64,000 nt of DNA from Styela clava (taxonomy: Eukaryota > Chordata > Ascidiacea > Stolidobranchia > Styelidae), in contig NC_135250.1 of assembly GCF_964204865.1 (NCBI RefSeq), forward strand, positions 13,516,001 through 13,580,000, in the 5' to 3' direction. The notes beneath the pieces are model-generated. The model saw nothing but the letters and a program-made list of their open reading frames with translations. It ran no database searches and was not told where the DNA came from. Below, piece by piece: positions 1,870-53,240 of the stretch. Every line of letters begins with the position of its first letter. The stretch's first letter is position 1. The position numbers and the translations under genes were made by a program.

Positions 1870-3168
1870 ATGGAGGCAGTTCACTTTTCACAGATTTTCG
1901 ACTCACTTTACTAGTTCAGTAAGATAAAGAACTAATATATTGCTATTGTACTATTTATTTTACTTTTAATACGTCAATGTAACGTCTAACATTAGCTGTA
2001 CTGCCCTTAAATTGTTTAAAAGAAAGTGCACGCTTTGAATACTACTAATGTTCAATGACCTGAATATTACTAAAACTGAGGAACGAAGCAAGACTTGTCG
2101 AATCCGCACTGTCCCAGTTTTATGTTTCCTATATTTGGTAGGCATATTTTTGTGTATTTCATTGCTGAAAATACTGAATTTGGTGATATGTCACAAATGC
2201 AATCCAACATATCAAATTGTATGGTGAAAGGGATGAATAAAATAAAACATCTACCACCCCATACCTTTGGACCCCCCAATAAAAAGCTGGGAGCATACTG
2301 TGTACACCTCAATGGATATTCACGTAAATGAATAGTAGTGCATTTTCATTTTTTGGAAAAGCTAGGCTACACCAGTAGTGCTGTTACATATATCAAAAGT
2401 CAAAAAAGGTGTTCCACAGTCTGAAATATTTGGCAGTCGCTTCGTATCCTGATCTTTTCAAAATTCTAGCAACAGATGGAGAAAGGACCTGTAAAAAAAA
2501 TTTTTCCTGGTCAATATTGACCTGAATACTGTTAGTAATTCAAGGATGTAATAATCATGCTACCAGTATTTAATACTCAATTGAAGATCAATCCTACTTA
2601 AAACGAGTGAATACCTAAATCAATACATTGTGCTATACCTGGGCTGAATATTTATTAACCGACATTTTTGTCAACCTATTAAGGTAAACATGTTGGTCTG
2701 TTAATTTACATGACTGCTTCAGATGTTTTTAGACATATCTTCATAAATTTCCTGTATGTGTTTTCATGCCAAAACGCCATCCGAAGACAAAATATCATTC
2801 TTTAAAAGTGAGTTTCTAGCAGTCTGCAACAGTTGATGTTTTAGGTATTTCAAAATAAATTGCCTACAACAATTAGGGCTTGAGCCTTGTATATATACAT
2901 ATATAAGTACAAGAGCTACTTCGACAAATTATTATTATTTTAAATAAAAATGTGAAATACCTCAAAAACCTAAATGGAAATCAATGAAAATGCAACGGTT
3001 CTGGGAGAAATATACATACCTTCAATAAATGTGGTGAATCTGAATAGGTAGATGTGACTCTTTGGTTCAACAGGATTTTCCAATTTATAATTTCGGTTGG
3101 GGTACTGTACAATACTGCAATAAGTCTTAAAAGTCCTTATTCAAGGATTTCTCACTGACCGTTTGTTT
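1870..3168. other. Intergenic stretch without a recognised gene
   Basis: AT-rich DNA. A 78-residue open frame on the plus strand (2095-2331) has a fairly balanced amino-acid composition but matches no family I recognise and lacks clear splice context. A terminal or 3' exon of the minus-strand THAP gene could also lie here, but I cannot define one. Confidence 0.4.
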
Positions 3169-3798
3169 TCAAACACCATTTCTAAGTTGTAAACTTTTCG
3201 CATAAAACAAAACACTCGAAATTGTGTCTTCAACAATATTAGGGCCTTCCCACTCAATTATTCGCTCTTCTATTTCGTTTTGTAATGTGCACCCTATGGT
3301 CAAATCTTTCTCAATGTTGATGAATATTCTGTGAGATTCCATGTTCCCCACTAACTTGAATGTTTCAAAATTTTGAAAGATAAACCAATTTGGCTGTTTC
3401 AACTTAAGAAAGGAATTGCTTATATCAGCCCAAGATTTATGCCTTGGTGTTTTTTTCAACCCAGACTTTACTATCTTTCTCCAAGCTTTCGGTTGCGAAG
3501 ATTCAAGAAATTTTTGGGGTAAGTTTTTTGTAGGAATGCTTCCAACAATAACACGTTTTCTTCCTTTACGATAACTGAATTCATTTGAATCGAAATGTTT
3601 CTCACAAATTCCTAGATGTCTTTTTTTAGCCAATTTAAAAATATCTTTCTTATCACGATAGTCGTAACAAAACTCCAACAGTTTCTTTTGCCACTCTTTA
3701 TTTATTCGCGGATAAGGATTTATTTCCAATATGTAAACACCGTGATTACCTCGACCTCTTGCTACATTGCATCCTGGCAGGGCACAGTGTTGTGCCAT
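3169..3798 (-). CDS. THAP-type zinc-finger domain protein (209 aa)
   Basis: The N-terminal ~95 residues form a THAP domain, a C2CH zinc-dependent DNA-binding fold. Cys5-x4-Cys10 is followed by Cys65-x2-His68 (CEKHF), with the conserved Trp36 between them and an IPTKNLP segment where the family has its AVPTIF-like box. The spacing between the Cys pairs (54 residues) is at the long end for the family. Residues ~100-209 match nothing I recognise; no coiled coil is obvious. The ATG at 3798 is chosen because it puts Cys5 at the usual distance from the N-terminus. It lies only 17 bp from the outer boundary of the satellite-armed palindrome, so promoter and 5' UTR must lie in that repeat. THAP domains occur both in host transcription factors and in P-element-like transposases; no RNase H-like transposase core is present here, so a domesticated or truncated gene is possible. 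Further downstream exons are not excluded. Confidence 0.75.
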   Translation of the reverse strand: MAQHCALPGCNVARGRGNHGVYILEINPYPRINKEWQKKLLEFCYDYRDKKDIFKLAKKRHLGICEKHFDSNEFSYRKGRKRVIVGSIPTKNLPQKFLESSQPKAWRKIVKSGLKKTPRHKSWADISNSFLKLKQPNWFIFQNFETFKLVGNMESHRIFINIEKDLTIGCTLQNEIEERIIEWEGPNIVEDTISSVLFYAKSLQLRNGV

Positions 3799-3814
3799 AA
3801 TACCCGTGTGAAGT

Positions 3815-3962
3815 TAGCGAAATTCCGGCGAAATTTTTTACCCACAATTCTAAGCAATGTTCCCTTTAAAATCGTACATTGAAGGACCATTACCGCGAGA
3901 TATAAAAATGTACATTGCTGGGAATAAGATTTTATCCAAGAAAATCAAATGCGATATTATGA
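3815..3962 (+). repeat. Left outer terminal segment of the palindrome
   Basis: About 150 bp, inversely matching 16436-16585. It contains the ACATTGCTGGGAAT block and is non-satellite sequence capping the tandem array. It must include the promoter region of the minus-strand THAP gene starting at 3798. Confidence 0.75.
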
Positions 3963-6915
3963 TATTTCCCACATCAGAAGTGGAAATATTTTTATTTTAC
4001 ATTATGTACACTAAATTTAATTTTTTTAAGAATGTAGAAAATAATGTGCATCTGCATCAGTTTAAAAGATTTATAGCAAAGAATGGCGATAATTGGCGAA
4101 AAATTTGTAAAAGGGCGTTACAGGCAATTCAATTGCGATTTTCTAAAATATCCCACATTAAGAGCAGAAATATTTTTATTGTAGATTAAAGTACCTTAAA
4201 TTTACTTGTTTTTAGAATGTAGAAAATAACACGCATTCATATTAGTTCAAAAGATATAGAGCAAACAATGTCGATAAGTAGCGAAAAATGTAAAAAATTT
4301 CGACGTTTCGACGTATTCATCTGCGATTCTCTAAGATATCCCACATTAGGAGTAGAAATATTTTTATTGTAGAATAAAGTACATTAAAATTACTTGTTTT
4401 TAGGATGTAGATAACAATGTGCATCCGTATTAGTTTAAAAAATATAAAGCAAATAATATCGATACCTAGCAAAAAACGTATAAAAGTGCGTTTCGACGTA
4501 TTCATCTGCGATTCCTAAAATATCCCACATTAGGAGTAGAAATATTTTTATTGTAGATTAAAGCACATTAAATTTACTTGTTTTTAAAATGTAGAAAATA
4601 ATGCGCATCCATATTAGTTCAAAAGATATAAAGCAAACAATGTCGATAATTAGCGAAAAATGTAAAAAAAATGGCGGTATAAGCAATTCAACTGCAATTT
4701 TCTAAAATATCCCACATTGGGAGTAGAAATATTTTTATTGTAGAATAAAGTACATTAAAATTACTTGTTTTTAGAATGTAGATAACAATGTGCATCCATA
4801 TTAGTTCAAAAGATATAAGACCAATAATCTCGATAAGTAGCGAAAAACGTATAAAAGGCGTTTCGACGTATTCATCTGCGATTCTCTAAGATATCCCACA
4901 TTAGGAGTAGAAATATTTTTATTGTACATTAAAGTATATTAAATTTACTAGTTTTTAGAATGTAGAAAATACTGCGCATCCATATTAGTTCAAAAGATAT
5001 AAAGCAAACAATGTCGATAATTAGCAAAAAAATGTGAAAAAAATTGCGGTATAAGCAATTCAACTGCATTTTTCTAAAATATCCCACATTAGGAGTAGAA
5101 ATATTTTTATTGTACAATAAAGTTTATTAAATCTACTTGTTTTTAGAATGTAGAAAATAACACGCATTCGTATTAGTTCAAAAGATATAAAGCAAACAAT
5201 ATCGATAATTAGCGAAAAATGTAAAAAAAATGGCGATATAAGCAATTCAACTGCAATTTTTTAAAATATCCCACATTAGGAGTAGAAATATTTTTCTTGT
5301 AGAATAAAGTACATTAAATTTACCTGTTTTTAGAATGTAGAAAATAATGCGCATCCATATTAGTTCAAAAGATATAAAGCAAACAATGTCGATAATTGGC
5401 GAAAAATGTAAAAAAAATGGCGGTATAAGCAATTCAACTGCAATTTTCTAAAATATTCCACATTAGGAGTGGAAATATTTTTATTGTAGAATAAAGTACA
5501 ATAAAATTACTTGTTTTTAGAATGTAGATAACATTGTGCATCCATATTAGTTCAAAAGATAAAAAGCAAATAATCTCGATAAGAAGCGAAAAACGTATAA
5601 AAGGCGTTTCGACGTATTCATCTGCGATTCTCTAAGATATCCCACATTAGGAGTAGAAATATTTTTATTGTACATTAAAGTATATTAAATTTACTAGTTT
5701 TAAGAATGTAAAAAATACTGCGCATCCATATTAGTTCAAAAGATATAAAGCAAACAATGTCGATAATTAGCGAAAAATGTAAAAAAATGGCGGTATAATC
5801 AATTCAACTGCAATTTTCTAAAATATTCCACATTAGGAGTGGAAATATTTTTATTTAACATTAAAGTATATTAAATTTACTTGTTTTTAGAATGTAGAAA
5901 ATAACACGCATTCATATTAGTTCAAAAGATATAAAGCAAACAATATCGATAATTAGCGAAAAATGTAAAAAAAATGGCGGTATAAGCAATTCAACTGCAA
6001 TTTTCTAAAATATCCCACATTAGGAGTAGAAATATTTTTATTGTAGAATAAAGTACAATAAAATTACTTGTTTTTAGAATGTAGATAACAATGTGCATTC
6101 ATATTAGTTCAAAAGATAAAAAGCAAATAATCTCGATAAGAAGCGAAAAACGTATAAAAGGCGTTTCGACGTATTCATCTGCGATTCTCTAAGATATCCC
6201 ACATTAGGAGTAGAAATATTTTTATTGTACATTAAAGTATATTAAATTTACTAGTTTTTAGAATGTAGAAAATACTGCGCATCCATATTAGTTCAAAAGA
6301 TATAAAGCAAACAATGTCGATAATTAGCGAAAAATGTGAAAAAAAATGGCGGTATAAGCAATTCAACTGCATTTTTCTTGAATATCCCACATTAGGAGTA
6401 GAAATATTTTTATTGTACAATAAAGTTCATTAAATCTACTTGTTTTTAGAATGTAGAAAATAACACGCATTCTTCAAAGATATAAAGCAAACAATATCGA
6501 TAATTAGCGAAAAATGTAAAAAAATGGCGATATAAGCAATTCAACTGCAATTTTCTAAAATATCCCACATTAGGAGTAGAAATATTTTTCTTGTAGAATA
6601 ATAAAGTACATTAAAATTACTTGTTTTCAGAATGTAGATAACAATGTGCATCCATATTAGTTCAAAAGATATAAAGCAAACAATGTTGATAATTAGCGAA
6701 AAATGTAAAAAGGGCGTTTCGACGATATTCATCTGCGATTCTCTAAGATATCCCACATTAGAAGTAGAAATATTTTTATTGTACATTGAAGTATATTAAA
6801 TTTACTTGTTTTTAGAATGTAGAAAATAATAAGCATTCATATTATTTCAAAAGATATAAAGCAAACAATGTCGATAATTAGCGAAAAACGTAAAAAAGGC
6901 GTTTCTAAGCATATT
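3963..6915 (-). repeat. Left satellite array, about 16 monomers of 185-187 bp
   Basis: Each monomer contains a conserved block reading TATCCCACATTAGGAGTAG followed by AAATATTTTTATT, recurring near 4153, 4340, 4525, 4712, 4896, 5085, 5272, 5458, 5642, 5830, 6016, 6198, 6385, 6567 and 6752, with a diverged first unit at ~3969. Two monomer types alternate: one with a GTTTCGACGTATTCATCTGCG stretch and one with GGCGGTATAAGCAATTC. The first type recurs at intervals of three or four monomers, a loose higher-order pattern. Short open frames of about 61 residues in each unit are by-products of the periodicity. Confidence 0.95.
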
Positions 6916-7379
6916 CGATCGCTAAAATCGTCGGTTGTTTCGCCTTAGGCACACATTGTTGTTGGTTAGCATTAGCAACCGACTAAAATCGGATCGAATC
7001 ACTGAAACAATATACAAAGTTGTAAACGCGACGCGGATTGTGATGATAAATTAATTAATCCAATCAAGTTTTATTGCGCTAAAATATATTTTACTTCGTG
7101 AGATTATAACGGGTATACGGATTCCTAACGACGATTACGCATTAGCAAGATTGCAAACATACCTATCAAAACTGAATATAACCAGGCAGTTTATCTCATG
7201 TGTTTATGTCCACATATTAAATTTGTATTTAATGTATTAAATAGACGCCACTGTGAGTAACGTTAAACACAATTAAGTTAATTGCCATGGGTTGAATATT
7301 TTACGCAACAGAAAAATCTCGCTGGAAAAGTCTTTTTTTTTCTAACGAGCGAATAATCACCGCGAATGTTTCATGAGCA

Positions 7380-7960
7380 AAACGAGATATATGTGGACAA
7401 AATATCTAGTGAATGAGATGCATGATAAATGGGATTCATGTGGACAAAATGGTTCCATTACATTTGAACCCACGTACATTTGAACCCATGACAATTGCAC
7501 CTGCATACTATTGCACCCATGGCATTTTTTTTGTTTTACGGATATTTGAACTCATACTAATCCTAACCCATGGGTTTTAGCACCCGCATATAGATTGAAC
7601 CCGCGGATATACACATGGGTTCAAATGTACGGTCACCGGACAAAATATTTGGCGCATGAGATATATATGAACAAAACCCCTGCACGACATATATAAAGAG
7701 AAAACACTTCGCGAATGAGCTGTTGATGCATTATGGAAACGAGATGTATGTGGACAAAATACGAGATGTATCACGTGAATGAGATGTATGTAGAAAAAAT
7801 ATCTGCTGAACGACATGTACGAGTATGAAGAGAAAACACTTTGCGAATGAGATGTTGGTAGACAAAACATCTGTTAAATGGTATGTGTGGTAGATTGGAT
7901 ACATGTGGACAAAACATCTGATGAATAAGATGTAGGTGTACAAGTCATGTGATTCCCAAC
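7380..7960. repeat. Degenerate ~40-50 bp tandem repeat
   Basis: Variants of GAATGAGATGTATGTGGAC followed by AAAATATCTG recur about ten times with heavy divergence and some deletions. The array is interrupted by the 187 bp inverted-repeat element at 7451-7637. Confidence 0.7.
7451..7637. mobile_element. 187 bp inverted-repeat element (MITE) inside a tandem array
   Basis: The left end reads GGTTCCATTACATTTGAACC and the right end, inverted, GGTGACCGTACATTTGAACC. GGACAAAAT flanks both sides (7442-7450 and 7638-7646), consistent with an 8-9 bp target duplication. Because the host array itself repeats GGACAAAAT, that duplication is suggestive rather than certain. Internally there are repeated ATTTGAACCCATG / ATTGCACCC variants. 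Confidence 0.6.
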
Positions 7961-9494
7961 CTTTTTCGTTAAACTTCTTCCTTCTCAAAATTTTAAACCT
8001 TTTATTCTTCTCTCACTATGCATAAAAACTACTGTATTATTTTAATCCTTAGATATTTGTCTGTGCGCTGACTGAAAAACCGATTTTGTACAGTTCCAGT
8101 ATTTTCTAATTGAATGTGTGCATTATATTATAATAAGCATAACGAACTTTGGGAAATCAGTAATACTACAGCAAATACAAAGCCGATTCCTCCCCAAAAC
8201 GACAAAGTTACTCGACAGGGATGAATTTTTTCCCGGTTTGGAAAACGTGCCTCCAATGAATGAGATATTTGTAGGAAATATACCTGACGAATAAGCCTAT
8301 CTTTACATATAGCATATGCTCAATCTTTAAATGAACGATTGAAGCAATTCGTTTATTTTTGTTAGAAAGACGCATTTGTAAAGCAGACTAATTCCATCAA
8401 AAACATGACTTTATGTTCTTTGTAGTGAATGCGCCAAAAATATATGATCACAATGATTTAGGAAATTGTGATTGTAGTATTTTTTCCATTGGGCTAGTAT
8501 CATTAAGTACGAATGACTTGAAGATGAAAAAAATAAGGGAACTTAACATAGAAATAATAAAAAATTGGTATGAACTAGTAAAAGCAATTGATGCTTGCAA
8601 TAAAATAACAAACCTCTTGGCAGAAAAAAATATAAGGTATTGCAGTTACATATAAAATCGGAGAGAAAAATGCAATAGAATGATAAAAATATCATAAAAT
8701 AATATGGTGGTATTCATGATAGATGGGGCAATATTTTCTTGGTTCGATAGATAATGTCAACATCTGCTCGGGACATCATTAACTTTTACATATCATATTA
8801 GTCTACAAACTACCTGAATTATTCTCTTATTGCTCTAAATTTACAGAAAAAAATGACAAAAATCGAAAAAACATAAATAGCAAGCGAAGAACTAGGTTGC
8901 AAAGAAATTTAAGTAGTTAAAATCAAGGGTGTGCGACATTTAATACAGGTCGCACTTTCATTCAACATAAGCTTTCTGGTAATAGCAAGCACAAAAGTTT
9001 TGGTTATTGATGACATGGGTGACAAATTATGACTTGGTTCATCAGTTCCGGAATATAGCCGGGTTGATATCGGATAGGTACCGACATGGGCGCAGCCAAA
9101 ATTTTCGGTGAAATTAAAACAGAGCACACTCAAAGTGCAAACTGAAAAGAATGCGTCGTTCACAGCGAAATAGCACAGTTACGTGTAGCCCGCCCCATAT
9201 GTGCCTGCCGGTTTATGGTGAATATTTTGCAAGTCCTATTTCAAATACCGAGCCTTAATCCGTAGTCAGCAGTACCCGCATTTGAAAATAGAACATTAGA
9301 AATCGTGAGAATTAATTTTGAAAGAAGTGTAACTCGCGGATGTCAGTAGCGTCAAAATCGTTTATAGGTACAAAAACACGCTCGCATGTAGCGCCGATCG
9401 AATGCATTAAATGGGAAACTATTACTTGGATTTTAATGTTAAACAAGCTGATTTTTAATTGCCATTCAATGATAATTAACATGCGTCGTGATTA

Positions 9495-9560
9495 GTGGTG
9501 GGAAAATAGTTTTTTTAGTCGAATTATTCGAATATTTTCAACGAACACAACACCGAATAA
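9495..9560 (+). mobile_element. hAT-like terminus fragment
   Basis: TAGTGGTGGGAAAATAG followed by TCGAATTATTCGAATATT resembles the left end and subterminal palindromes of hAT elements. No matching opposite end or target duplication was identified. A similar TTCGAATCGAATTATT stretch occurs at about 26546-26563. Confidence 0.35.
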
Positions 9561-9588
9561 TTAGTATTGTCATTTCAAACAACCGTAT

Positions 9589-9761
9589 TTGGGATGTCGG
9601 CCGCCGAAACGATCGCCGTGACAACTTTATTTTTTGGAATTTACTTGAAGACTGAAAACTTCGCAACAATGCAGCGATTTTTATTTCCTAATTTTGTCAT
9701 AATCCAAGGCCGCAGTAAATAATTTAGTCACGGCGATCCTTTCGGCGGCTTGACATCCCAA
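9589..9761. mobile_element. 173 bp inverted-repeat MITE
   Basis: The ends are near-perfect inverted repeats of about 35 bp: left TTGGGATGTCGGCCGCCGAA and right, inverted, TTGGGATGTCAAGCCGCCGA, both continuing into GATCGCCGTGAC. It is too short to encode protein. The target duplication is unclear. Confidence 0.7.
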
Positions 9762-10404
9762 TTGATGATGATAAACTCTATTAAAGCACTTTTTATCCAC
9801 TAGTAAATATTAATTCTCATGCAACGGCGGATATCGCAGTTTAATTTTTATTTTTTAAACAGAAATTTGATTTCACATCGGCGACGGTGTCAAAGACAAC
9901 TATTAAGGAGTGCATTCATAACACAAATTAATTCTATGCTGCTTTTTATCTTTTTTGTAGGATTTGTATCACAGTTTGTAAACTAATTTCCCAATTTGAA
10001 GCGAACAGTATTACTGACCTCGGAATGCGATATATGTGAAGATGATAGTTGACTTTTTTATGCTTTTAATTTTATATCGTGTCCGTGTTACTTTCGTATT
10101 AAATAATAATAATTAAAAACTCCGCAAATTGGTAATCTCTCTAATACTCAGTGTTGAGAATTAACGTAACTCAGCTTTGGAATAAACACTGATACTAAAT
10201 ACTTGAATAAATCTGCAATAATGGCATTTCTACGTGGTCAAAATAATATGTTTCCCCGCTCCCAATATCTCGCAAAATTTACATAGAATACAAAATTTAC
10301 CAGTCGTACTTATCTGGTTCGACAATTCTAAATTTACAAAAACAGTGTTGACTCGCTTTCATTCAAAATTGGAAATTGAAAAATATGATAATCCTTACCC
10401 GTAA

Positions 10405-10568
10405 GTGGGACACGTGGGACAAGTGGTAGACGTGGTACACGTGGGACAAGTGGGACACGTGGAACAAGTGGTACACGTGGTACAAGTGGGACATGTGGGA
10501 CAAGTGCGACACGTGGGACAAGTGGGACACGTGGTACACATGGTACACGGCGACAAGTGGGACACGAC
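10405..10568. repeat. 9 bp minisatellite, about 18 units
   Basis: Units are variants of GTGGGACAC, GTGGGACAA and GTGGTACAC, roughly alternating C- and A-ending units. The nine-base period keeps frames open on both strands, giving artificial Pro/Cys/Thr-rich or Val/His-rich translations. Joins between C-ending and following units create repeated CACGTG E-box palindromes. Confidence 0.9.
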
Positions 10569-11757
10569 ATTTTTGAGACACCGGTGCCGCAAAGCATTTC
10601 ACGCGACTCCAATGATCCCATTCCATAATCCAGAAATAATAAAAAACAGTTCGGACCTAGGCTTATCATTCATATCCAAAAAATTGTCTGTCAAGAAATA
10701 TATAGACCAGGTTATATTGAATGAGCCGTCATCATATTTGTTATGTTGAAAACTAAAAATTGCAGTTATGAAGATATTTCACAAACCTTATTTCAGTAAA
10801 CTTTTGTCCACTATTTGGAGTAATGTATGTTTGTTCGCAACCACGCATCGAGATCGGGGTCCATTTGACGACTTTGACGACGGCAAGAGCCAGCAGATCA
10901 CGTGTATTTCAGTTCAAACTAACACAACTGTATATTAGTATTGTTACATATTTGATGGACTTTTTAAGATACCGATTTTACATGTGTCGATTAAACATGT
11001 TTTCTTCCACTTTTCATAATATTCATATCCAATTCTGATTGTACATTATTTCTATACGCCACTATCCAATTTAATTTAGTGTTATACTGTTGTGGCTGAT
11101 TGTTGTGGGTTCCTTGAACCTTTAATGTGTGCTAATTTATGTAACGATACTACTTCTACCGCATTGTAAATAAAAAATACAGCATGAAACAATGTACTCA
11201 TGTATTAGGTCAAAAATGAAAGTGTGTAAGTTATGTTGGGTGGTCATAAATTCTAGTTAAACGCTTTTAAATTTTAATTTGCACTACAGCATCCGAAATT
11301 GGATGCTTGCGATATTCACATTATGAGTCCAGTAAATATTGGTGGCCTTATTTAAGAATGCATTGCTATTTTACCTATTATTCATGGAACGTCTCAATCT
11401 TGGTACATGCGCAGAGCACTTCATATTTCAAAAAAAAAAACGAATGTCATTAAAAAAGATATTTGAATGTTTATTTTATTATATCTTTGGGGGGGGGGGA
11501 GATTTTCAAATACCTGAAAGTAAAATAAAAACGATATCTATTTATCTTTAAATACCGCGTTTAAAATAATTGCCAATCACAGATTATTAATCATTTAAAA
11601 CGAGTAGGAAAAATTTGTTGTTATTTGGCCCTATTGACTAGGTCTTGTTTTAAGTTGTGGGCTTATATTGAAATCATTTTAAATTAAAACGAGGTCTAAT
11701 TTTCCGGCTAGGTCTCATTTTTCGCAGAAACCCGGTAAAAGTAATGCTTTAGATACA

Positions 11758-14700
11758 TAAGTCACAGAATATTTCTACTCCTAATGTGGGATATTTTAGA
11801 GAATCGCAGATGAATATCGTCGAAATGCCCTTTTATACGTTTTTCGCTAAGTTTCGAGATTGTTTGCTTTATATCTTTTGAACTAATATGGATGCGTATT
11901 ATTTTCTACATTTTAAAAACAAGAACAAGTACATTTAATGTACTTTAATGTACAATAAAAATATTTCTACTCCTAATGTGGGACATTTTAGAGAATTGCA
12001 ATTTAATAGAATAGAAACGCCCTTCTTTACGTTTTTCGCTAATTATCGACATTGTTTGCTTTATATCTTTTGAACTAATATGAATGCGTATTATTTTCTA
12101 AATTCCATAGACAAGTAAATTTATTGTACTTTAATACACAACAAAAATATTTTTACTCCTAATGTGGGGTATTTTAGAGAATCGCAGATGAATATCGTCG
12201 AAATGCCCTTTTATACGTTTTTCGCTAAGTTTCGAGATTGTTTGCTTTATATCTTTTGAACTAATTTGGATGCGTATTATTTTCTACATTTTAAAAACAA
12301 GAACAAGTACATTTAATGTACTTTAATGTACAATAAAAATATTTCTACTCCTAATGTGGGACATTTTAGAGAATTGCAATTTAATAGAATAAAAAAGCCC
12401 TTCTTTACGTTTTTTGCTAAGTTTCGAGATTGTTTGCTTCATATCTTTTGAACTAATATGGATGCGTAATATTTTCTACATTCTAAAGACAAGTAAATTT
12501 AATATACTTTAATGTACAATAAAAATATTTCTACTCCTGATGTGGGATATTTTAGAGAATCGCAGATGAATACGTCGAAACGCCCTTTTATAAATATTTC
12601 GCAAAGTATCGAGATTGTTTGCTTTATATCTTTTGAACTAATATGGATGCGCCTGGTTTTCTACATTCTAAAAACAAGTCAATTTAGTTTACTTTAATCT
12701 ACTACAAAAATATTCCTACTCCCAATGTCGGATATTTTAGAGAATCGCAGATGAATATCGTCGAAATGCCCTTTTATACGTTTTTTGCTAAGTTTCGAGA
12801 TTGTTTTCTTTATATCTTTTGAACTAATATGAATGCGTATTATTTTCTAAATTCCATAGACAAGTAAATTTAATGTACTTTAATACACAACAAAAATATT
12901 TTTACTCCTAATGTGGGGTATTTTAGAGAATCGCAGATGAATATCGTCGAAATGCCTTTTTATACGTTTTTCGCTAAGTTTCGAGATTGTTTGCTGTATA
13001 TCTTTTGAACTAATATGAATGCGTATTATTTTCTACATTTTAAAAACAAGAACAAGTACATTTAATGTACTTTAATGTACAATAAAAATATTTCTACTCC
13101 TAATGTGGGATATTTTAGAGAATCGCAGATGAATATCGTCGAAATGCCCTTTTATACGTTTTTTGCTAAGTTTCGAGATTGTTTGCTTCATATCTTTTGA
13201 ACTAATATGGATGCGTAATATTTTCTACATTCTAAAGACAAGTAAATTTAATATACTTTAATGTACAATAAAAATATTTCTACTCCTAATGTGGGATATT
13301 TTAGAGAATCGCAGATGAATACGTCGAAACGCCCTTTTATAAGTTTTTCGCAAAGTATCGAGATTGTTTGCTTTATATCTTTTGAACTAATATGGATGCG
13401 CCTGGTTTTCTACATTCTAAAAACAAGTCAATTTAGTTTACTTTAATCTACTACAAAAATATTCCTACTCCTAATGTCGGATATTTTAGAGAATCGCAGA
13501 TGAATATCGTCGAAATGCCCTTTTATACGTTTTTTGCTAAGTTTCGAGATTGTTTTCTTTATATTTTTTGAACTAATATGGATGCGTATTATTTTCTAAA
13601 TTCCATAGACAAGTAAATTTATTGTACTTTAATACACAACAAAAATATTTTTACTCCTAATGTGGGGTTTTTTAGAGAATCGCAGATGAATATCGTCGAA
13701 ATGCCCTTTTATACGTTTTTCGCTAAGTTTCGAGATTGTTTGCTGTATATCTTTTGAACTAATATGGATGCGTATTATTTTCTACATTTTAAAAACAAGA
13801 ACAAGTACATTTAATGTACTTTAATGTACAATAAAAATATTTCTACTCCTAATGTGGGATATTTTAGAGAATCGCAGATGAATATCGTCGAAATGCCCTT
13901 TTATACGTTTTTTGCTAAGTTTCGAGATTGTTTGCTTCATATCTTTTGAACTAATATGGATGCGTAATATTTTCTACATTCTAAAGACAAGTAAATTTAA
14001 TATACTTTAATGTACAATAAAAATATTTCTACTCCTAATGTGGGATATTTTAGAGAATCGCAGATGAATACGTCGAAACGCCCTTTTATAAGTTTTTCGC
14101 AAAGTATCGAGATTGTTTGCTTTATATCTTTTGAACTAATATGGATGCGCCTGGTTTTCTACATTCTAAAAACAAGTCAATTTAGTTTACTTTAATCTAC
14201 TACAAAAATATTCCTACTCCTAATGTCGGATATTTTAGAGAATCGCAGATGAATATCGTCGAAATGCCCTTTTATACGTTTTTTGCTAAGTTTCGAGATT
14301 GTTTGCTTTATATCTTTTGAACTCATATGGATGCTTATTATTTTCTACATTTTAAAAACAAGAACAAGTACATTTAATGTACTTTAATGTACAATAAAAA
14401 TATTTCTACTCCTAATGTGGGACATTTTAGAGAATTGCAATTTAATAGAATAGAAACGCTCTTCTTTACGTTTTTCGCTAATTATCGACATTGTTTGCTT
14501 TATATCTTTTGAACTAATATGAATGCGTATTATTTTCTAAATTCTAAAGACAAGTAAATTTAATATACTTTAATGTACAATAAAAATATTTCTACTCCTA
14601 ATGTGGGATATTTTAGAGAATCGCAGATGAATATCGTCGAAATGCCCTTTTATACGTTTTTTGCTAAGTTTCGAGATTGTTTGCTTCATATCTTTTGAAC

Positions 14701-16435
14701 TAATATGGATGCGTAATATTTTCTACATTCTAAAGACAAGTAAATTTAATATACTTTAATGTACAATAAAAATATTTCTACTCCTAATGTGGGATATTTT
14801 AGAGAATCGCAGATGAATACGTCGAAACGCCCTTTTATAAGTTTTTCGCAAAGTATCGAGATTGTTTGCTTTATATCTTTTGAACTAATATGGATGCGCC
14901 TGGTTTTCTACATTCTAAAAACAAGTCAATTTAGTTTACTTTAATCTACTACAAAAATATTCCTACTCCTAATGTCGGATATTTTAGAGAATCGCAGATG
15001 AATATCGTCGAAATGCCCTTTTATACGTTTTTTGCTAAGTTTCGAGATTGTTTTCTTTATATCTTTTGAACTAATATGGATGCGTATTATTTTCTAAATT
15101 CCATAGACAAGTAAATTTATTGTACTTTAATACACAACAAAAATATTTTTACTCCTAATGTGGGGTATTTTAGAGAATCGCAGATGAATATCGTCGAAAT
15201 GCCCTTTTATACGTTTTTCGCTAAGTTTCGAAATTGTTTGCTTTATATCTTTTGAACTAATATGGATGCGTATTATTTTCTACATTTTAAAAACAAGAAC
15301 AAGTACATTTAATGTACTTTAATGTACAATAAAAATATTTCTACTCCTAATGTGGGACATTTTAGAGAATTGCAATTTAATAGAATAGAAAAGCCCTTCT
15401 TTACGTTTTTTGCTAAGTTTCGAGATTGTTTGCTTCATATCTTTTGAACTAATATGAATGCGTAATATTTTCTACATTCTAAAGACAAGTAAATTTAATA
15501 TACTTTAATGTACAATAAAAATATTTCTACTCCTAATGTGGGATATTTTAGAGAATCGCAGATGAATACGTCGATACGCCCTTTTATAAGTTTTTCGCAA
15601 AGTATCGAGATTGTTTGCTTTATATCTTTTGAACTAATATGGATGCGCCTGGTTTTCTACATTCTAAAAACAAGTCAATTTAATTTACTTTACTCTACAA
15701 TAGAAATATTCCTACTCCTAATGTCGGATATTTTAGAGAATCGCATATGAATATCGTCGAAATGCCCTTTTAGACGTTTTTTGCTAAGTTTCGAGATTGT
15801 TCGCTTTATATCTTTTGAACTAATATTGATGCGTATTATTTTCTACATTCTAAAAACAAGTAAATTTAATGTACTTTAATGTACAATCAAAATATTTCTA
15901 CTCCTAATGTGGGATATTTTAGAGAATCGCATATGAATACGTCGAAACGCCGTTTTATACATTTTTTGCTAATTATCGACATTGTTTGCTTTATATCTTT
16001 CAAACTAATATGGATGCACATTGTTTTCTACATTCTAAAAACAAGTCAATTTAATTTACTTTAATCTACAATAAAAATATTCCTACTCCTAATGTGGGAT
16101 ATTTTAGAGAATCGCAGATGAATATCGTCGAAATGCCCTTTTATACGTTTTTTGCTAAGTTTCGAGAATGTTCGCTTTATATCTTTTTAACTAATATGGA
16201 TGCGTATTATTTTCTAAATTATAAAGACAAGTAAATTTATTCTACTTTAATGTACAATAAAAATATTTCTACTCCTAATGTGGGATATTTTAGAGAATCG
16301 CAGATTAATACGTCGAAACGCCCTTTTATCTTTTGAACTAATGTGGATGCGTTTTATTTTTTAAATTCTAAAGACAAGTAAATTTAATATACTTTAATGT
16401 ACAATAAAAATATTTCTACTCCTAATAAGAGATCT
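11758..16435 (+). repeat. Right satellite array, about 26 monomers of ~187 bp
   Basis: The block ATATTTCTACTCCTAATGTG recurs from ~11770 to ~16420 at 182-193 bp intervals. The monomers are reverse complements of those in the left array. From 12512 a block of four monomers repeats with exactly 749 bp spacing (equivalent points 12512, 13261, 14010, 14759, 15508). Conserved 61-residue frames inside each unit are passive consequences of this. Confidence 0.95.
12512..15750 (+). repeat. 749 bp higher-order repeat (four-monomer unit)
   Basis: Equivalent positions fall exactly 749 bp apart over four intervals. The diagnostic monomer carries GATGCGCCTGGTTTTCTAC, unlike the GATGCGTATTATTTTCTAC of other monomers. 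Copies are nearly identical across the period, while monomers inside one unit differ clearly. The third unit (14010-14758) carries different inner monomers, for example a TTTAATAGAATAGAAACG stretch near 14440, suggesting segment exchange. Confidence 0.9.
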
Positions 16436-16585
16436 TTTAGAAAATCGAAATTGAATTTCTTGAATACACTCTGATTCCCAGCAATGTATATTTCTATATG
16501 TCGCGGTAATGGCACTCCAATGTCAGATTTTTGAAGTGAACACTGCTGGGATTTGTGGGTAAAATATTTCGCCGCAATTTCGCTA
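16436..16585 (-). repeat. Right outer terminal segment of the palindrome
   Basis: Inverted counterpart of 3815-3962, sharing ATTCCCAGCAATGTA, TCGCGGTAATGG and AATTTCGCTA blocks. Just outside is ATGGC at 16606, in a position comparable to the THAP start codon on the left, but the frame that follows stops after 13 codons and has no THAP features. Confidence 0.75.
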
Positions 16586-16838
16586 GGATCACGATGGCTG
16601 CCATAATGGCGTACGGGATAGAAAGTACACAATTGATATACCGGTGAAGGCTTATGCAGAACAATCTGTGAAAAGAAGTAAACTTTCTAAATACTTTAAT
16701 CTCGATATGATGTAATAGTATTATAAATAGGCACGCCGCCCATCTACTTACTGCTTAGAACCGCGGAACGGGAAGCTAGGAGCAATTTGACCTTTGTGTG
16801 CGGCGAAGAGGAAAGGTGAATATGTACAGCAGAAATCC
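16586..16838. other. Short intergenic stretch
   Basis: No gene or repeat recognised. Confidence 0.4.
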
Positions 16839-17336
16839 TAATGGACCTTTCCCCGAGCATCGACTTCCTTGTTTACTTCGTGACATTGGCCAAGATGCAA
16901 AAGTGACGTAACAATGCCCCCTTTTCGCATCCGCTCAGACACTTTTCTCACTCAGACAGATTTTCAAGCGTGATTGTAAACATTACCTCGTTTTCGCGTT
17001 TCTGAACTCTATTCGTTAGTTTTCAGTTGTGTTTTGGGAACTTAAATAAAAATCAGATAATTCAATGATCACTCTGTCTTTCTAGGAGTTTTAATTTAAT
17101 TGCAGTAATAAAAATTAGTGTAGAAATAGCTGGGATAGACTAGCCTGAAATTCTTTACCGGTACTTTTAAAAAACAGATTGTTGTATGCGATGAATCATA
17201 ATGATTGTTTGAAACACATACCCCATTTTAAAGACGCCAACTCGCAAAAGCATTCTTAAAATAGCCTTGACAATTTTGCAATGGTAAAGCATATGGATAA
17301 TTTTCCGAGGGTCAAAGGTCGGGGAAAAGTCCATAG
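16839..17336 (+). mobile_element. ~500 bp MITE, copy A
   Basis: The terminal inverted repeats read CCTAATGGACCTTTCCCCGA at the left and, inverted, CCTATGGACTTTTCCCCGAC at the right. A second copy in opposite orientation lies at 25376-25840. The shared interior includes AGCATCGA, CCTTGTTTA, CGTAACAAT, CGCTCAGACA and TTTACCATTGCAAA blocks (strand-adjusted). No coding capacity. Confidence 0.75.
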
Positions 17337-17639
17337 GAACTAGGAACTTCTTCCGCCCAAGAGGCGCAAGATTTAATCATTAAATAATTAAGTTATCTCA
17401 AGTTTTTTATACAAAGAAGTGGATCAATATTATCATCCAAAATCATGTTAGCAGGGAGTGTGGACCTCATCCCTGCTGTTCCGAGTTCAAAGACTGGTTG
17501 GGAGTGTTCTTTCTATTTCTGCGTGACATATTATGTTTAGAAGATATCCTGGCGTGCTCTCGCCAAAAATGTTTGGTCGCCAGTTGTGCGACAACTTCAC
17601 GATCCCGAGATAGCCATGGCGACCAATTTAGTCATAATT

Positions 17640-17718
17640 TTGGTCCCTTTCCCACGGAACACTTGGAAGATGCTCGCGGAACACTAGTGTTCCGCGGAAC
17701 ACAGTTTGGGAAACGCTG
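17640..17718 (-). mobile_element. hAT terminus fragment
   Basis: Read on the minus strand from 17718 this begins CAGCGTTTCCCAAACTGTG, then GTTCCGCGGAACACTAGTG, a palindrome-rich end characteristic of a widespread hAT group. The opposite terminus was not located. Confidence 0.6.
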
Positions 17719-19082
17719 ATGGAGTAAGAGCGCTTTTTTGGGGGATCCCCTAACTTACGATCGCTAAGTCTTCGGTCTCTGACCGATATTCTCGTTTTAT
17801 TGTTATGCTGATTACGGAGTCGAAATAGACTTACACCTAATTTCAATTTTTGTTTATAATTCTTTGAATGAAATTCTTGTTTAGAGCTGCTGTTTTTTTG
17901 TGCCCAATTTTTCCTGGTGCGAAATTGGCCCCGCCTTTCAGTTCTCAGTCTCACGTGTTCCCCAGTTCATGTACCGGTACTGGTATTATTTACATTCTTT
18001 GGTGCTTACCAGTAGATTGAGTACCGGTACAGTGAGTTGAAAGTAAAGGAAGTTAGATTGTCTTTATTTAGGTTTGTCTATATACATCAATCAATTTTAT
18101 TTCGGTCGCTCTGGTATAAAACAAAACAACAACAACACAACATGTTTGCATAACGTAGACAGCGAAAAAGAAAATCCTAGTAGCATGATAGGTTTTCGAA
18201 TAGGTTTTCAACTAATCGAAACTCAATACATGCGATTGTTTTCCAAAAAAAAAATTGTATAAAAAAAAAATTGACAATATAATTGGCTTAAAAAAATATA
18301 TATTTCAATAATTCCATATTGGCTCCGGAATTTAATTTGGCAAAAAAAAAAGGTCGGTACGGTGCGGGTAGTGTCGTAGTGATATTCATTTAAATTAAAT
18401 GACACAAAAGAAAAATTTGCGATGGACTAATCTTTTTTGAAAAATGTGTACAGTTTCAAAGTGGTTTGTACCGGGTATCGGTACCGTACCTGAGATGTCA
18501 AGACCAAATTTTAGTGAATTCCTTTCATATCTTCAGATTTCGGTTTAACGCATGGCTGCATCCTGCATGGTGGACTAATAAATTACTAAAGTTTAGTGCT
18601 GGGAATGGTTAACCGATTTCAGGTGGTTAAAGGTTAGTCGGTTACCGGTACAATCTATTTTGAACGTTATCGTAATGTAGACTAATTCTTCTTATAACTG
18701 TATAAGCAGAAACATTTTCATAAGTCTGTAGGTACGGTAACATTGACAGATTTAGAAGAAATATAGAAAGTTCGAGAGTAAATCAGCCTTTCGAAAATAA
18801 AGTTTATGCAAAGTACTACCGTATTACAGTATTATAAATGTTAAATTTAATATATTTTGCTGCTGTCAAAATTTCTAATTTTCTTTCATTTGCTATATGT
18901 CAAAATAGGCTAGACAAATCGAATTATAGAAATTATATAACCTATAGGAAATCATGAAACTTACTCTAATATGAAAACTGAATGTTTTGTGTGAAATGGA
19001 AGAATATCAGAATATTATTACTTACACTCATTGATTGAATCATAATTATACAAACAATCTGAGATATCAGCATCGATAACCG
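17719..19082. other. Intergenic region with repeat fragments upstream of PDCD2L
   Basis: It holds a repeat-tail fragment at 17805-17840 (GCTGATTACGGAGTCGAAAT), also seen at 57297-57316, and a segment at 18078-18138 (TCAATTTTATTTCGGTCGCT, then AACAAAACAACAACAAC) shared with 44250-44292. A hAT-like start (TAGTGCTGGGAATGG) lies at 18594. TACCGGTA palindromes occur at 17972, 18022 and 18643. No gene recognised. Confidence 0.45.
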
Positions 19083-20168
19083 ATGGCTGCCATGGCTACT
19101 TCAAGAAATCAAGTTCTTCTTGGTGTTCTGGATGAAAAAATTGGAACATCAACAATTTCATTAAATGTAAACAGAGTTGGTGGAAGAGTCAATCTAAATC
19201 AGTCAAAGTCGGTTGGTACTGTTGTGCCTAGTTGTGTGTTATGTGGTGATAGCCAAATTTTAGTAACACATCTCTATTGTCCACTAGATGTTTCATCACA
19301 CCACCGAATACTGTGTGTATTTAGTTGTTCTCGTTCATCTTGTTGGAGTAAGAGCAAAGGTTGGACGGTTTTAAGAATACTGATTTCTGATAAAAACAGT
19401 TTGGAAATTGAGAAGTCCACAAATGTTTCGGAAGAAGTTTGGGGGGATGGTGACGAGAATGAATGGGGAGATGGTGACGAAACTGAATGGGGAGATGAGA
19501 GCGATATGAATAGTTCTAGAAAAATTGTTGCAGAAGAAAAAGATGTTTCTACTAAACTCAGTCAAATGAAGATCTCAAATAATCACAAGAACATTATTTC
19601 ATGTAAATATGATAATGCAACTATGGAACATCCATCTAAAATTTATCTTCCTGCATATTATATCAATGTATATGATGAAACTGAATGTGTCAAATTAACA
19701 CAGAAGACGAAGAAAGGAGAGCAAAATTATTCTCTTTCTTCTGATGAAATGAAACAATATGCTGATTTTGCCAGTGGTAAATGCACATTGAATCCTGAAA
19801 GTTATGAGCGTACTGAGCAAAATGATAAACTATTTTACAAATTCTGGAAAACTAATCAAATCTGCCCTGAGCAGATTATTCGTTACTGCCATGGTGGAAC
19901 GCCATTGCATGCGAAAAAATCAAATGATAAAATACCCATTTGTCCTGACTGTGGATCTCTCCGGGTGTATGAAATGCAATTAATGCCAGCCCTTTTACCA
20001 TGTTTACAGACAGACAGCTTCTCCCTAGAGTTTTCTACTGTCCTTGTATATACATGTTCAAAAAACTGTTCAAATGATGGTGATTTGAGTGTTAAAAAAG
20101 AATACTTAATTTATCAAGATGATCCAGATTTATCTTATTTTAAGGGTCAAAAACAATGCACAAGTTAA
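19083..20168 (+). CDS. PDCD2L: Programmed cell death protein 2-like (361 aa)
   Basis: The order of features matches PDCD2L. The N-terminus is VLLGVLDEKI, followed by a zinc-binding motif (CVLCGD, ~res. 51-56, then YCPLDVSSHHR) and a W-containing segment (KGWTVLR). A low-complexity acidic stretch (~115-140) contains three WGDxxE/D units. The C-terminal PDCD2_C domain includes ICPDCGSLRVYEMQLMPALL and ends in an EYLIYQDDPD-type segment. Length is close to the vertebrate protein (about 360). Family members act as dedicated chaperones or transport adaptors in ribosome biogenesis, binding 40S protein uS5 or its relatives; that role is family knowledge. It reads through as one exon. An AG (ATATCAG) sits 17 bp before the ATG and could be a 3' splice or trans-splice acceptor. 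MRPL10 and ESF1 follow on the same strand. Confidence 0.93.
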   Translation: MAAMATSRNQVLLGVLDEKIGTSTISLNVNRVGGRVNLNQSKSVGTVVPSCVLCGDSQILVTHLYCPLDVSSHHRILCVFSCSRSSCWSKSKGWTVLRILISDKNSLEIEKSTNVSEEVWGDGDENEWGDGDETEWGDESDMNSSRKIVAEEKDVSTKLSQMKISNNHKNIISCKYDNATMEHPSKIYLPAYYINVYDETECVKLTQKTKKGEQNYSLSSDEMKQYADFASGKCTLNPESYERTEQNDKLFYKFWKTNQICPEQIIRYCHGGTPLHAKKSNDKIPICPDCGSLRVYEMQLMPALLPCLQTDSFSLEFSTVLVYTCSKNCSNDGDLSVKKEYLIYQDDPDLSYFKGQKQCTS

Positions 20169-20633
20169 CACAATATATATTAGAACTTAAGCAGTTTTCG
20201 CATCGCGTTCCTTTCGGTTGCCAAGTCATCAACCATTGAGCTGCAACAATACTTTGCTAGAATTTTAATTGCGGATATTTACACCTCATAGGTCATAATT
20301 AGCAGAGTTTGGTACATCAGATTGTGAACCTTTGCATGTGGCATTATTTGGTTTTCACATTACATAATGTAATAATTCCGGTACTTCGGAAAAAAATTGA
20401 AACTTGGGGTGGATTTATTTCTTTAGTTGAAATCAATGCAGCTTCTACATTTGCATAAATTTATTTATAATTAAAATCATCAATATTAATTTTGTTCATC
20501 TACATTTGTATGTCTATTAAAAACCAGTTGCTATGGCATTATTGGGATTTGCATTCAACTTAGAATTATGTTATTAAACCGATTGACTTTTTTGTTTTCT
20601 GCAGAACATTTGATTTTTAATGTATTATGTAGA
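20169..20633. other. PDCD2L-MRPL10 spacer
   Basis: About 465 bp with no canonical AATAAA; ATTAAA variants occur at 20475 and 20518. The spacer ends with a polypyrimidine tract and TTTTCTGCAG acceptor-like sequence (AG at 20602-20603), 30 bp upstream of the likely MRPL10 start codon. Confidence 0.5.
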
Positions 20634-21353
20634 ATGAGAATGGCTCTCTGTGCTGTATTAAAATCATTTACTAGTTCCAAGGTAATTCTGCCATTTACAA
20701 TTATAAAGCGATACAGGTATTATTGGGAAGCAAGGCCTGAAAACAAATGGAGAAAAAAGATGATGATGATCACTTTACCTCGTTTTGGACGTTCTGATTA
20801 TGAACCTGAAGAACAGCATAAAGAGGACGATAGACTTCATGGACTCGATGTTGTTTTACATCAAGAAGCCACAGAAGCAATGAACAAGAGCAAAATGATA
20901 GTAGTATTTTTACAAGCTCAAATGGAAATAACTGAATTTTACCGAATGCGTCATGAACTAAAGAAAATTAATATTTTTCTTGATGAATTTCCAAATCATG
21001 TAATGCAACATGTCCTAAAGAACACTCGCTTAGAAAACCTTCTTAGTTTGTATCAAGGTCGAACTTTAACGGTTTATTCGGAGGGTACAAACATAATAGA
21101 CCTTTTAAAAATATCCAATAAGAATCCTTATGTGGCTTTGCTAGGTGGGATCATTGATGACCATGCAATGAGTGCTAGGCAAATGATAGACTACAGCAAA
21201 TTACCACCAATTGACAACTTACATAGTCAATTGTCTTTCATTTTAACGAGTCATTCTTCATCCACACATAATTTATTGCAACGAAATCAAACAGAAACTG
21301 CTAGTTTATTGTCCCAGTATATTCAAGATGAGAAGACTGACACCCAAGTTTGA
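20634..21353 (+). CDS. MRPL10: Mitochondrial large ribosomal subunit protein bL10m (239 aa from preferred start)
   Basis: The body matches bL10m: a KSKMIVVFLQAQMEITEFYR segment, then RHELKKINIFLDEFPNHV, a LLSLYQGRTLTVYSE strand, YVALLGGIIDDHAMSARQ, the IDYSKLPP motif, and a C-terminal HNLLQRNQTETASLLSQYI helix. bL10m anchors the L7/L12 stalk on the mitochondrial 39S subunit. The open frame extends up to an ATG at 20568, but an acceptor-like TTCTGCAG at 20596-20603 suggests the first 22 codons are not translated. From 20634 the N-terminus (MRMALCAVLKSF, then KRYRYY) is basic and hydroxylated like a mitochondrial presequence. Length is slightly below the vertebrate 261. No intron is visible. 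It is same-strand with its neighbours. Confidence 0.9.
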   Translation: MRMALCAVLKSFTSSKVILPFTIIKRYRYYWEARPENKWRKKMMMITLPRFGRSDYEPEEQHKEDDRLHGLDVVLHQEATEAMNKSKMIVVFLQAQMEITEFYRMRHELKKINIFLDEFPNHVMQHVLKNTRLENLLSLYQGRTLTVYSEGTNIIDLLKISNKNPYVALLGGIIDDHAMSARQMIDYSKLPPIDNLHSQLSFILTSHSSSTHNLLQRNQTETASLLSQYIQDEKTDTQV

Positions 21354-21706
21354 TTAATCATTCTTTTCAGAATTATTACTTTTCTCAACAAAGGATTAAT
21401 AGAATTTGTTTAATATCCAATTGGCTACCTACAGCAACATTCTGAAATTTTATATAGTGCTATCACTGTCAAATTTTAAGTATAACTTTGGTTTGAGTGT
21501 GATGACCTTCTGGAACTTAATCATATAGAAAGCATTGATGAAATATGTGACTTGTATTTGGTGTTTTAAATTCAAATGTTGTTAACCAAATCTGCAGGAT
21601 ATCTTATCAGAGTAATTGTCAACTGTTATATTTAAGAGACACATGAAAAAAATGACTGGCTGCTAATTCATTGTATTTTTTTTGCATTTTTAGATTTCAA
21701 AATATC
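21354..21706. other. MRPL10-ESF1 spacer
   Basis: A 353 bp spacer without AATAAA. It ends in a pyrimidine-rich tract and TTTTTAG (AG at 21692-21693), 13 bp before the ESF1 ATG, consistent with a 3' splice or trans-splice acceptor. Confidence 0.5.
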
Positions 21707-23464: not shown

Positions 23465-23699
23465 AATTGACACTTTCTGTAGTTGTATGGGGGTTTCTCT
23501 TGTTTCTTCCCTACATTCCCTGTTACATTGAGATGACCTTTTGTATTCCGGACGGTAAATATTAGATGAGCAATTTCATAACGGGTCATAATTAAATGCT
23601 AATTTGTTGTTTCTGGGATGTCGGAAAGTGTTTCAGAATGGTCCGCCCTGGAGCGGCGTTTTTAGGACTCTGTAGTGAAAGTCTATCCCCGTTCCATGA
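23465..23699. other. ESF1 downstream region
   Basis: No recognised gene. Confidence 0.3.
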
Positions 23700-25079
23700 T
23701 TGATCAGAGCATTCGCGCAATCACGCCTATGCACGTTACGGTCGGACAACGAGTTTGTTTTTGCTTGTCGGTCAAGAGCCTTTTGGGTTCACAAATAACA
23801 TCAGTTAAAAGAGTGCATCTGGATAGGTAGATGAAAACGGTGGAAGAGTGTGTTTCGTTACGCAACCTACTCTCTTGTATATGCGTACATTTTTTGCCCA
23901 GAAGTCTGTTAATGGCATGGCTTCGAAGTCGTCTTTTGTAGATGAATCGAACTTCATATCCAAAAATTCCTCTTCGTCGAGGCGAAATGGATCTCTTGTT
24001 AGTCTCCATTCCGGAAGTTCTGTGTTGTTCAAGTTTGAAAAATTGTGTCCAAATTCTTGTATCAAAAGTCGAAGTTGGGGGACAATATCGCCGTCCAGTT
24101 TGATTTGAAGGACAGTGTCGAATTGGGAAATGTTGCCGCGTTTCCTTTTGAGCTCGACGATACTATAATTCAAGCTTCGCTATGAAAGTACGAATGTGAT
24201 CGTAGTCAGTTATACGGTTATTTTTTTTTTACAATGTAAAAGAAATTTTAATTCAAAAATTTCCACAATTAATCTGATCTAAATGACAGTAGGAGATCGT
24301 GTTTTCTTTCGGCTTCAAGAAATAGCATAGGCTCATTTCTGCAGATTCTCGTAATTACAATCCATCTCCTTACAGAACTTGGCAAACACTTGTATTGACG
24401 GCACTTGTTTTAATGAAGTTGACGGTTCTTATTATTATCGCAAGCTTATCTTTCATCGCAGTAGATAGGGTCTTGAAAGCCATAGCCCGTGGATGGATTA
24501 CATAGTGCGATATCCAATACCGTCGTAGTTTTTCTCTGGCGATGATTTCACTTCGAGATCTTAGTGTTGCCGCGCACCATTAGTGCAGACACCTACAAGT
24601 TTCTCCCATTTTAATTTATTTTTTCAAAAAAAAAATGCAGCGACAAGCTGCACATCTTCAGATTTAAAAGTCGTCTCGGGAGGTTTGCAAAGCAACATAT
24701 CTTCTTCAATCGAAGTTGATCTTATAAAACGATGCCTCGATGACTTTGAAATAAATGGTTTTATCAACGTTTTTCCTACGTTAGGTGTTTTTTTCGCTTC
24801 GCAATCATATTAGCAATTTCAAAGAAGCTTCTACTATCTACAGGAGGCGACTAAAAAAAGGAATTCATACTGCAACTCTCTTCTTTTCAAGAATGTTTTT
24901 TGCTTTAAAAAGGCCACATGCATTCTGATGGGCAGGGTACTTTTTTTTAAGATGGCGCTGTAAGCGTCACTGCTCGGATTTTCAAAATATAAAACACATT
25001 GCGGTACAACTTCGCCATTCATTGTCGTATGTATAAAGCCATACCTAAGATAATCGCCATTATACTTTGTTCCGCTCAT
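23700..25079 (-). pseudogene. hAT transposase relic (ZBED5/SCAND3-like group)
   Basis: Minus-strand fragments lie in transposase order. At 25079-24834 is an N-terminal segment with DYLRYGFIHTT and PQCVLYF, resembling the region before the BED-type finger (the second Cys of the finger is lost). At ~24813-24640 is a VGKTLIKPFISKS segment. At ~24600-24540 is a KLVGVCTNGA-like catalytic-core segment followed by stops. At 24173-23805 are RDPFRLDEEEFLDMKFDSS and AMPLTDFWAKN, typical of the C-terminal hAT region. Stops and frame changes between them show it is dead. Termini were not located. It resembles, but is not identical to, the relic at 27.6-28.7 kb. Assignment to this hAT group rests on motif memory. 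Confidence 0.7.
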
Positions 25080-52169: not shown

Positions 52170-52306
52170 GAACGTTTTCGTTTTGCATCTAAGTAATCCT
52201 GAAACCGATTGTTGCAATAGCCCAAAATGTTTTCGACAAACCGGAGGGAGAAACAATTCAAAAACAGGAACAGCCATGTTGTGATTCTTCCAAACAAATT
52301 GAGGGA

Positions 52307-53199: not shown

Positions 53200-53240
53200 G
53201 ATTTGCAAAGCGAAAAATTGCAGAGAAAGAAGTAGATGAG

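Follow-up and report, generated by a model that had tools for sequence, protein, structure and literature searches.

What is the long palindrome near the start of a 64,000-nucleotide stretch of the Styela clava genome (contig NC_135250.1, positions 13,516,001 to 13,580,000; hereafter the window), and how did it come to lie there? A preliminary description, made from the letters alone, saw a 12.8 kb palindrome with satellite arrays as arms and identical terminal segments ('caps') at its ends, and proposed a giant foldback-like element with possible kinship to Galileo. The palindrome is real, although interrupted by a centre of ~4.85 kb (6920-11767), and is very probably a non-autonomous, internally deleted member of the Mutator superfamily of DNA transposons, of giant size and foldback type and closest in its features to Rehavkus. 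The foldback-like architecture, satellite-built inverted arms around a variable middle, was thus correctly recognised.

The outer limits of the element are set by its insertion footprint and by its relatives. A 9-bp target-site duplication (TSD), TGCCATAAT, lies symmetrically outside the termini with all nine bases identical. Among random pairs of window flanks, the same 9-mer occurred at any of 31 symmetric offsets in 0.14% of cases, and any common 9-mer within 60 + 60 bp in 2.8%. In the genome assembly (376.6 Mb in 379 contigs, some of tens of megabases), left-cap matches begin at the base equivalent to 3802 on C1 at 9.17 Mb, on C13 and on C2, and right-cap matches start at base 16598 on C1 at 9.20 Mb, on C9 at 3.60 and 23.21 Mb, and on C1 at 21.348 and 21.350 Mb. 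The TSD and the termini common to other genomic copies therefore place the element at 3802-16598, 13 bp beyond the caps as first drawn on both sides. The two ends do share an exact start, TAGCGAAATT, found once per strand in the window, at 3815 (+) and 16576-16585 (-), and inverted homology extends over 258 bp (79%, E 6.6e-45), so that the caps are similar rather than identical. Behind them stand opposite-facing arrays of one satellite, 15.8 units of 187 bp on the left (3967-6897) and 24.4 units of 186 bp on the right (11768-16329), with an inverted similarity of ~83-85%.

Palindromic arrays are typical sites of misassembly, and a second, cap-free satellite palindrome on C1 might encourage the view that the locus is a local inverted duplication or misassembly of an ordinary satellite array. 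Such an origin is extremely improbable, since the order cap, array, centre, array, cap recurs elsewhere between different flanks and TSDs, and the left and right arms form distinct lineages in four paired copies (see below). Indeed, the check suggested in the preliminary description, a genome search with the caps, finds them again as pairs in inverted orientation, which share the outer boundary and have target duplications of their own. Matches number 12 for the left cap and 15 for the right and fall into 15 places: the window's own two, 12 others, and a weak match on C14 (76% over 110 bases). Both ends are complete in three copies, namely that of the window, one on C18 (14226026-14258403, 32.4 kb, TSD CACCATGGC, 9/9) and one on C1 (9170868-9196169, 25.3 kb, TSD AATTCATTA/CATTCATTA, 8/9 when compared by eye). 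With 9/9, 9/9 and 8/9 in the three testable copies, the TSD is typical of the Mutator superfamily (8-11 bp, mostly 9). A 5.4 kb copy on C9 (23214654-23220045) has no testable TSD because the tip of one end is lost; lacking other parts of the centre than the window copy, it is a second deletion derivative. The remaining cap places are single ends or rearranged copies. At one of these (L045:3237 and 5166; C1 at 21.348 and 21.350 Mb) a pair of R-type caps with their arrays stands in direct tandem at a distance of 1,929 bp; their outer flanks resemble each other, as if a flank plus end had been duplicated.

Comparison of the window copy with the two large copies shows what it has lost and how recently the family has moved. 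Centre pieces agree at 97.6-99.6% identity, and the family therefore moved recently. An open frame of 1,950 codons in the large copies runs across the 10583/10584 junction, for which reason the window copy is to be regarded as a non-autonomous, internally deleted derivative; the 8,068 bp missing at this point correspond to most of the transposase frame and the 2.4 kb preceding it. The earlier statement that no transposase lies inside thus holds for an intact gene but not for the sequence as a whole, since the last 72 codons of the frame are kept from position 10584, frame-shifted. The C18 copy carries ~15.8 kb more than the window at the same junction, and this surplus holds frames with RVT_1 and GIY-YIG domains, probably a nested Penelope-like retroelement with repeated parts. 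The frames with reverse transcriptase and GIY-YIG domains occur in both orientations at C18 14.234-14.250 Mb (L029:8406-9998, L030:116-1609, L030:2095-5028). A microsatellite with a 9-bp unit, GTGGGACAC, adjoins the deletion junction at 10405-10566 and is also present in the two large copies.

Features of the palindromic element in the window and of its immediate target (positions are those of the window)
Feature	Position	Strand	Remarks
THAP-domain frame, target gene outside the element	3172..3798	-	Pfam THAP, E 5.8e-5, 24.2 bits (cut-off 23.9)
Left TSD copy, TGCCATAAT	3793..3801		Its minus strand holds the ATG of the THAP frame
Whole transposon copy, putatively non-autonomous	3802..16598		12,797 bp; delimited by TSD and termini common to other copies
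Left terminal cap, L-type end	3802..3966	+	Begins ACCCGTGTGAAGTTAGCG
Left satellite arm	3967..6919	+	~16 units of ~187 bp; dimeric periodicity of ~371 bp
Centre part 1	6920..10583		~98-99% identical to both large copies; partly missing from the C1 copy
Deletion junction	10583..10584		8,068 bp of the C1 9.17-9.20 Mb copy gone
Transposase-frame remnant	10584..10800	+	Codons 1879-1950 (last 72); frame-shifted near the end
Centre part 2	10801..11767		~0.73 kb of the large copies absent at ~10874-10882
Right satellite arm	11768..16432	-	~25 units of ~186 bp; a higher-order period of four units (~749 bp) runs through much of the arm
Right terminal cap, R-type end	16433..16598	-	Begins GCCATCGTGATCCTAGCG on the minus strand
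Right TSD copy, TGCCATAAT	16599..16607		

The protein encoded by the large copies identifies the superfamily. The C18 and C1 copies each contain the 1,950-codon frame without a stop (a single frame, introns not being excluded), and the two differ at 15 of 5,850 bases (99.7% identity), with five codons changed synonymously and ten nonsynonymously. Four domains are found along the 1,950 residues: a PHD finger, a DDE (Asp-Asp-Glu) core, and Ulp1-like and USP protease domains. The PHD finger (PF00628) scores 25.6 and 28.8 bits in L048 and L049 (cut-off 24) and 21.6 in L029, matches 26 distinct PDB sequences at E<=0.001 when the fragment from L033 is used, and has the Y-Y-M-W cage of PHF2-type readers. 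Within the DDE core, D, D, CxxH and E are invariant in all six aligned members, in keeping with the Mutator superfamily, whose cores have a C/DxxH motif following the second D and preceding the E. The predicted model of the core has an RNase H-like strand order and finds its best structural match in ISCth4 of the IS256 family, with the P element ranking below, so that the modelled fold is closest to IS256/Mutator transposases. Sequence models were silent in this respect: Pfam transposase and Mutator-like element (MULE) models gave no match in the six members at E up to 10, NCBIfam gave none in four proteins at E up to 0.1, and PDB sequences searched with a profile of the DDE alignment yielded zero matches. 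The structural model of the Ulp1-USP part was too poor for use.

These results also bear on the suggested kinship with Galileo, and on the fuller reading in which the locus would be a foldback of the P superfamily mobilised by a THAP transposase, the neighbouring THAP frame being a relic of it. Galileo, in the accounts available, does resemble the present element in its long inverted arms and internal tandem repeats. However, elements of the P superfamily, Galileo included, duplicate 7-8 bp of target against 9 bp here, and the encoded protein is of another kind, with no THAP domain in its 1,950 residues at E up to 1 and the IS256-family resemblance of its catalytic core, and so the proposal is hardly tenable. 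The neighbouring THAP frame was rejected as a part of the element: it lies outside, its ATG is inside the TSD, and it has one full match in the genome. Its C-terminal part (residues ~140-190) is similar to 19 short pieces of the genome.

The association of the DDE core with two protease domains extends well beyond the large copies. At least 84 genome matches were obtained with the DDE core (74 of 165 candidates scored), and 56 with a query comprising the Ulp1-like end and USP. At 13 places DDE and Ulp1/USP matches lie side by side in a stop-free open frame of the same length, at 23-100% identity; the criterion was a second match covering at least 360 of 389 residues, and the frame itself was read for L029, L048 and L049. 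Two frames of 1,288 codons (C2 at 27.27 Mb and C6 at 15.75 Mb) contain the DDE core and match the USP-segment query at residues 5-113 only, before USP, and possibly represent the state before USP was gained. A distant sister (L050, C13:226500-231300, 1,267 residues) combines the DDE core, an Ulp1-looking stretch without Pfam confirmation and a C-terminal PHD finger; kin of it at 24-31% identity include several stop-free frames. The USP-less frames and this sister suggest that USP was added to a lineage already bearing Ulp1, and the fusion itself seems old and kept open.

The satellite arms have a history of their own. In a comparison of 207 usable monomers from 11 arms (four intervals outside 150-230 bp, three of 147 and one of 369 bp, and the last unit of each arm being left out), all 173 monomers of the four paired copies (15+24+31+25+41+30+4+3) had as nearest neighbour outside their own arm a monomer from the same-side arm of another copy. 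The pattern is less clean in three more diverged single arms, with same-side neighbours for 2/5 monomers in C2_L, 14/23 in C1d_R and 6/6 in C1c_R. It follows from the same-side clustering that the arms have been inherited with the element and that left and right arms have not exchanged with each other, and this although they could fold on each other. Arm length varies from 4 to 42 units, and the right arm of the window contains a four-unit repeat with identical monomers, which is what recent unequal exchange would give. Homology between caps and array monomers, of the kind described for Tetris, was not significant, the observed score being reached by 56 (left) and 62 (right) of 500 shuffles on the plus strand and by 312 and 256, respectively, on the minus strand. 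The arrays contain the motif TAGCGAAA 17 times in the orientation of the element and never in reverse, but one common 8-mer is unsurprising at such lengths, and no repeated binding site is claimed on this basis.

A separate question is whether a host satellite was captured by the transposon or whether, in line with the idea of a satellite-spreading vehicle raised at the outset, the element seeds free satellite arrays. The terminal inverted repeat (TIR) sequences of Tetris in Drosophila virilis form long free arrays, according to the available part of its description (PMC4079207), where in S. clava one small cap-free cluster was encountered. A 371-bp array query gave at least 206 genome matches, and among the matches listed seven of eight clusters carry caps, which makes capture or seeding improbable. 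The eighth (L054, C1 at 21.388-21.391 Mb) consists of two opposed arrays ~30 bp apart (468-2458 and 2489-3632) with no caps in the 4.0 kb examined (C1:21387900-21391900). Its flanks differ from the family caps and are inverted copies of each other, at ~90% over 1.5 kb including the array, up to the end of the 4.0 kb stretch. Given its small size (~3.2 kb) and the presence of a rearranged copy 38 kb away, this cluster may be local debris of the family or itself a rearranged copy, or else a second user of the satellite.

Empty sites reconstructed by joining the flanks of the three complete copies show where the element has landed. In the window the first ATG of the THAP-domain frame falls inside the TSD, and the insertion has cut this frame off from its upstream sequence. 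On C1 a PEBP-family frame (PF01161, E 2.1e-12) was hit, the TSD taking up bases 21-29 behind its first ATG. On C18 the TSD includes ACCATGG, but reading from this ATG meets a stop after 19 codons, and this insertion was for that reason not counted as a start-codon case; the nearest recognisable frame there, of the Ig-like CFAP65/ASH type, starts ~0.9 kb downstream, and two frames on the other side have no Pfam match. Two of three complete insertions are thus within 30 bp of a start codon. For 15,000-30,000 assumed genes such an insertion is expected in 0.2-0.5% of cases each, and the observed pair has a chance of ~2e-5 to 7e-5, in a test made post hoc, after the data had been seen. For one-ended copies, frames of at least 60 amino acids were listed for six flanks; these neither support nor contradict targeting, because a single frame (L041) was scanned, with no Pfam match.

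Taken together, the data describe a recently active, giant Rehavkus-like foldback family in which the copy of the window is a passenger and the source copies are what deserves interest. The protein of a full-length copy would be supplied in trans and would bind the caps, perhaps also repeated sites in the arms, and the transposase would then excise the element and, making a staggered cut of 9 bp, reinsert it. The PHD finger could direct insertion to 5' ends of genes marked by trimethylation of lysine 4 in histone H3 (H3K4me3), while the two protease domains might act locally, freeing chromatin or repair proteins of ubiquitin or SUMO. The arms, finally, would grow and shrink by unequal exchange inside each arm. 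That this amounts to a chromatin-guided transposon, in which an H3K4me3-reading PHD finger sends a 25 kb element to the start codons of active genes and the Ulp1-like and USP domains edit ubiquitin and SUMO marks during insertion, is a tentative proposal to which we assign considerably less than an even chance. The fusion of PHD, DDE, Ulp1-like and USP domains nevertheless offers a system in which to ask whether a transposase reads or edits chromatin for targeting.

Elsewhere in the window, ordinary genes at 19080-23464 include a PDCD2-type frame, a frame with a ribosomal L10 domain (presumably MRTO4-like) and ESF1. A frame with three TSP1 domains lies at 36158-37699, and at 40002-41882 a 626-codon frame contains 22 copies of a 42-bp repeat and encodes a low-complexity protein. 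A reverse transcriptase frame at 51833-54101, with a 172-bp tandem duplication upstream, is probably a degraded long terminal repeat (LTR) retrotransposon.

Among known systems, Rehavkus comes closest. As far as the available text goes, it is a Mutator-like outgroup with a 9-bp TSD, one frame, a PHD finger and a minisatellite, has been reported from insects and annelids only, and is described in Repbase only (PMC6446971). The inverted termini of Rehavkus-1_TC of Tribolium, an element of 9.5 kb, hold a 164-bp satellite in mostly 5 and 8 units (PMC10218199). The features checked here (PHD finger, terminal satellite with long TIRs, single frame, 9-bp TSD) are all present, and link the family to Rehavkus-1_TC and Rehavkus-1_HR, a likeness judged by description, with Repbase sequences of Rehavkus outside the comparison. 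Set against Rehavkus-1_TC, the present element is larger (25 kb in the copy without the nested insert) and has longer arms (5-8 units there, 16-42 in the three long copies of S. clava), and it bears Ulp1-like and USP domains, which the available descriptions of Rehavkus do not mention.

As the likeness is one of descriptions, the family might instead be an independent animal MULE lineage outside Rehavkus that acquired PHD finger and satellite arms convergently. The aphid element Phantom, too, has a minisatellite behind its transposase frame (PMC6446971), Ulp1 occurs in Mutators of hydra and lancelet and PHD with Ulp1 in a Ginger element (PMC2836005; all three cases as given in the parts of these sources available), and in the distant sister the PHD finger sits at the opposite end of the protein. 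Against such convergence, the 9-bp TSD, one large frame, a PHD finger and a satellite of ~160-190 bp in both termini together reproduce Rehavkus as its available descriptions have it. An origin outside Rehavkus is accordingly unlikely, though less remote than the other alternatives, and a placement near Rehavkus is preferred.

Other systems share single aspects of the family, within what their available accounts report. The protease domains recall Ginger1 and the Ulp1-bearing Mutators, in which a transposase is joined to Ulp1 (in Ginger1-9_HM to a PHD finger too), whereas Ginger has a Gypsy-integrase-like DDE core and the account does not mention Ulp1 and USP together; it does report a Trichomonas protein joining Peptidase C19 to a transposase, and its authors suggest that the ubiquitin and SUMO proteases of transposases may have a part in repair, either while transposition proceeds or once it is over (PMC2836005). 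No MULE or Rehavkus bearing Ulp1 as well as USP was met in the literature searched, which lay outside the Repbase reports and was in part accessible. Maize Mu likewise has a 9-bp TSD and prefers 5' ends of genes and H3K4me3 regions, a targeting seen there as correlation (PMC2774946); satellite arms and PHD or USP domains go unmentioned for it in the available text, and the targeting likeness here concerns three insertions. Tetris/DAIBAM is similarly built, of an outer flanking domain, ~220-bp tandem repeats and a middle, with a TSD of 8-10 bp, and was guessed by its authors to be Mutator; its autonomous copy and mobilising gene had never been found, whereas derivatives and large open-frame source copies occur here in one assembly (PMC4079207, available part). 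With both together, the mobiliser of a foldback, the reason for its satellite arms and the seeding of satellites therefore become testable. Out of the ordinary in the S. clava family are its size, the Ulp1 and USP fusion present in 13 uninterrupted frames and, in two of three complete copies, an insertion site no more than 30 bp from a start codon.

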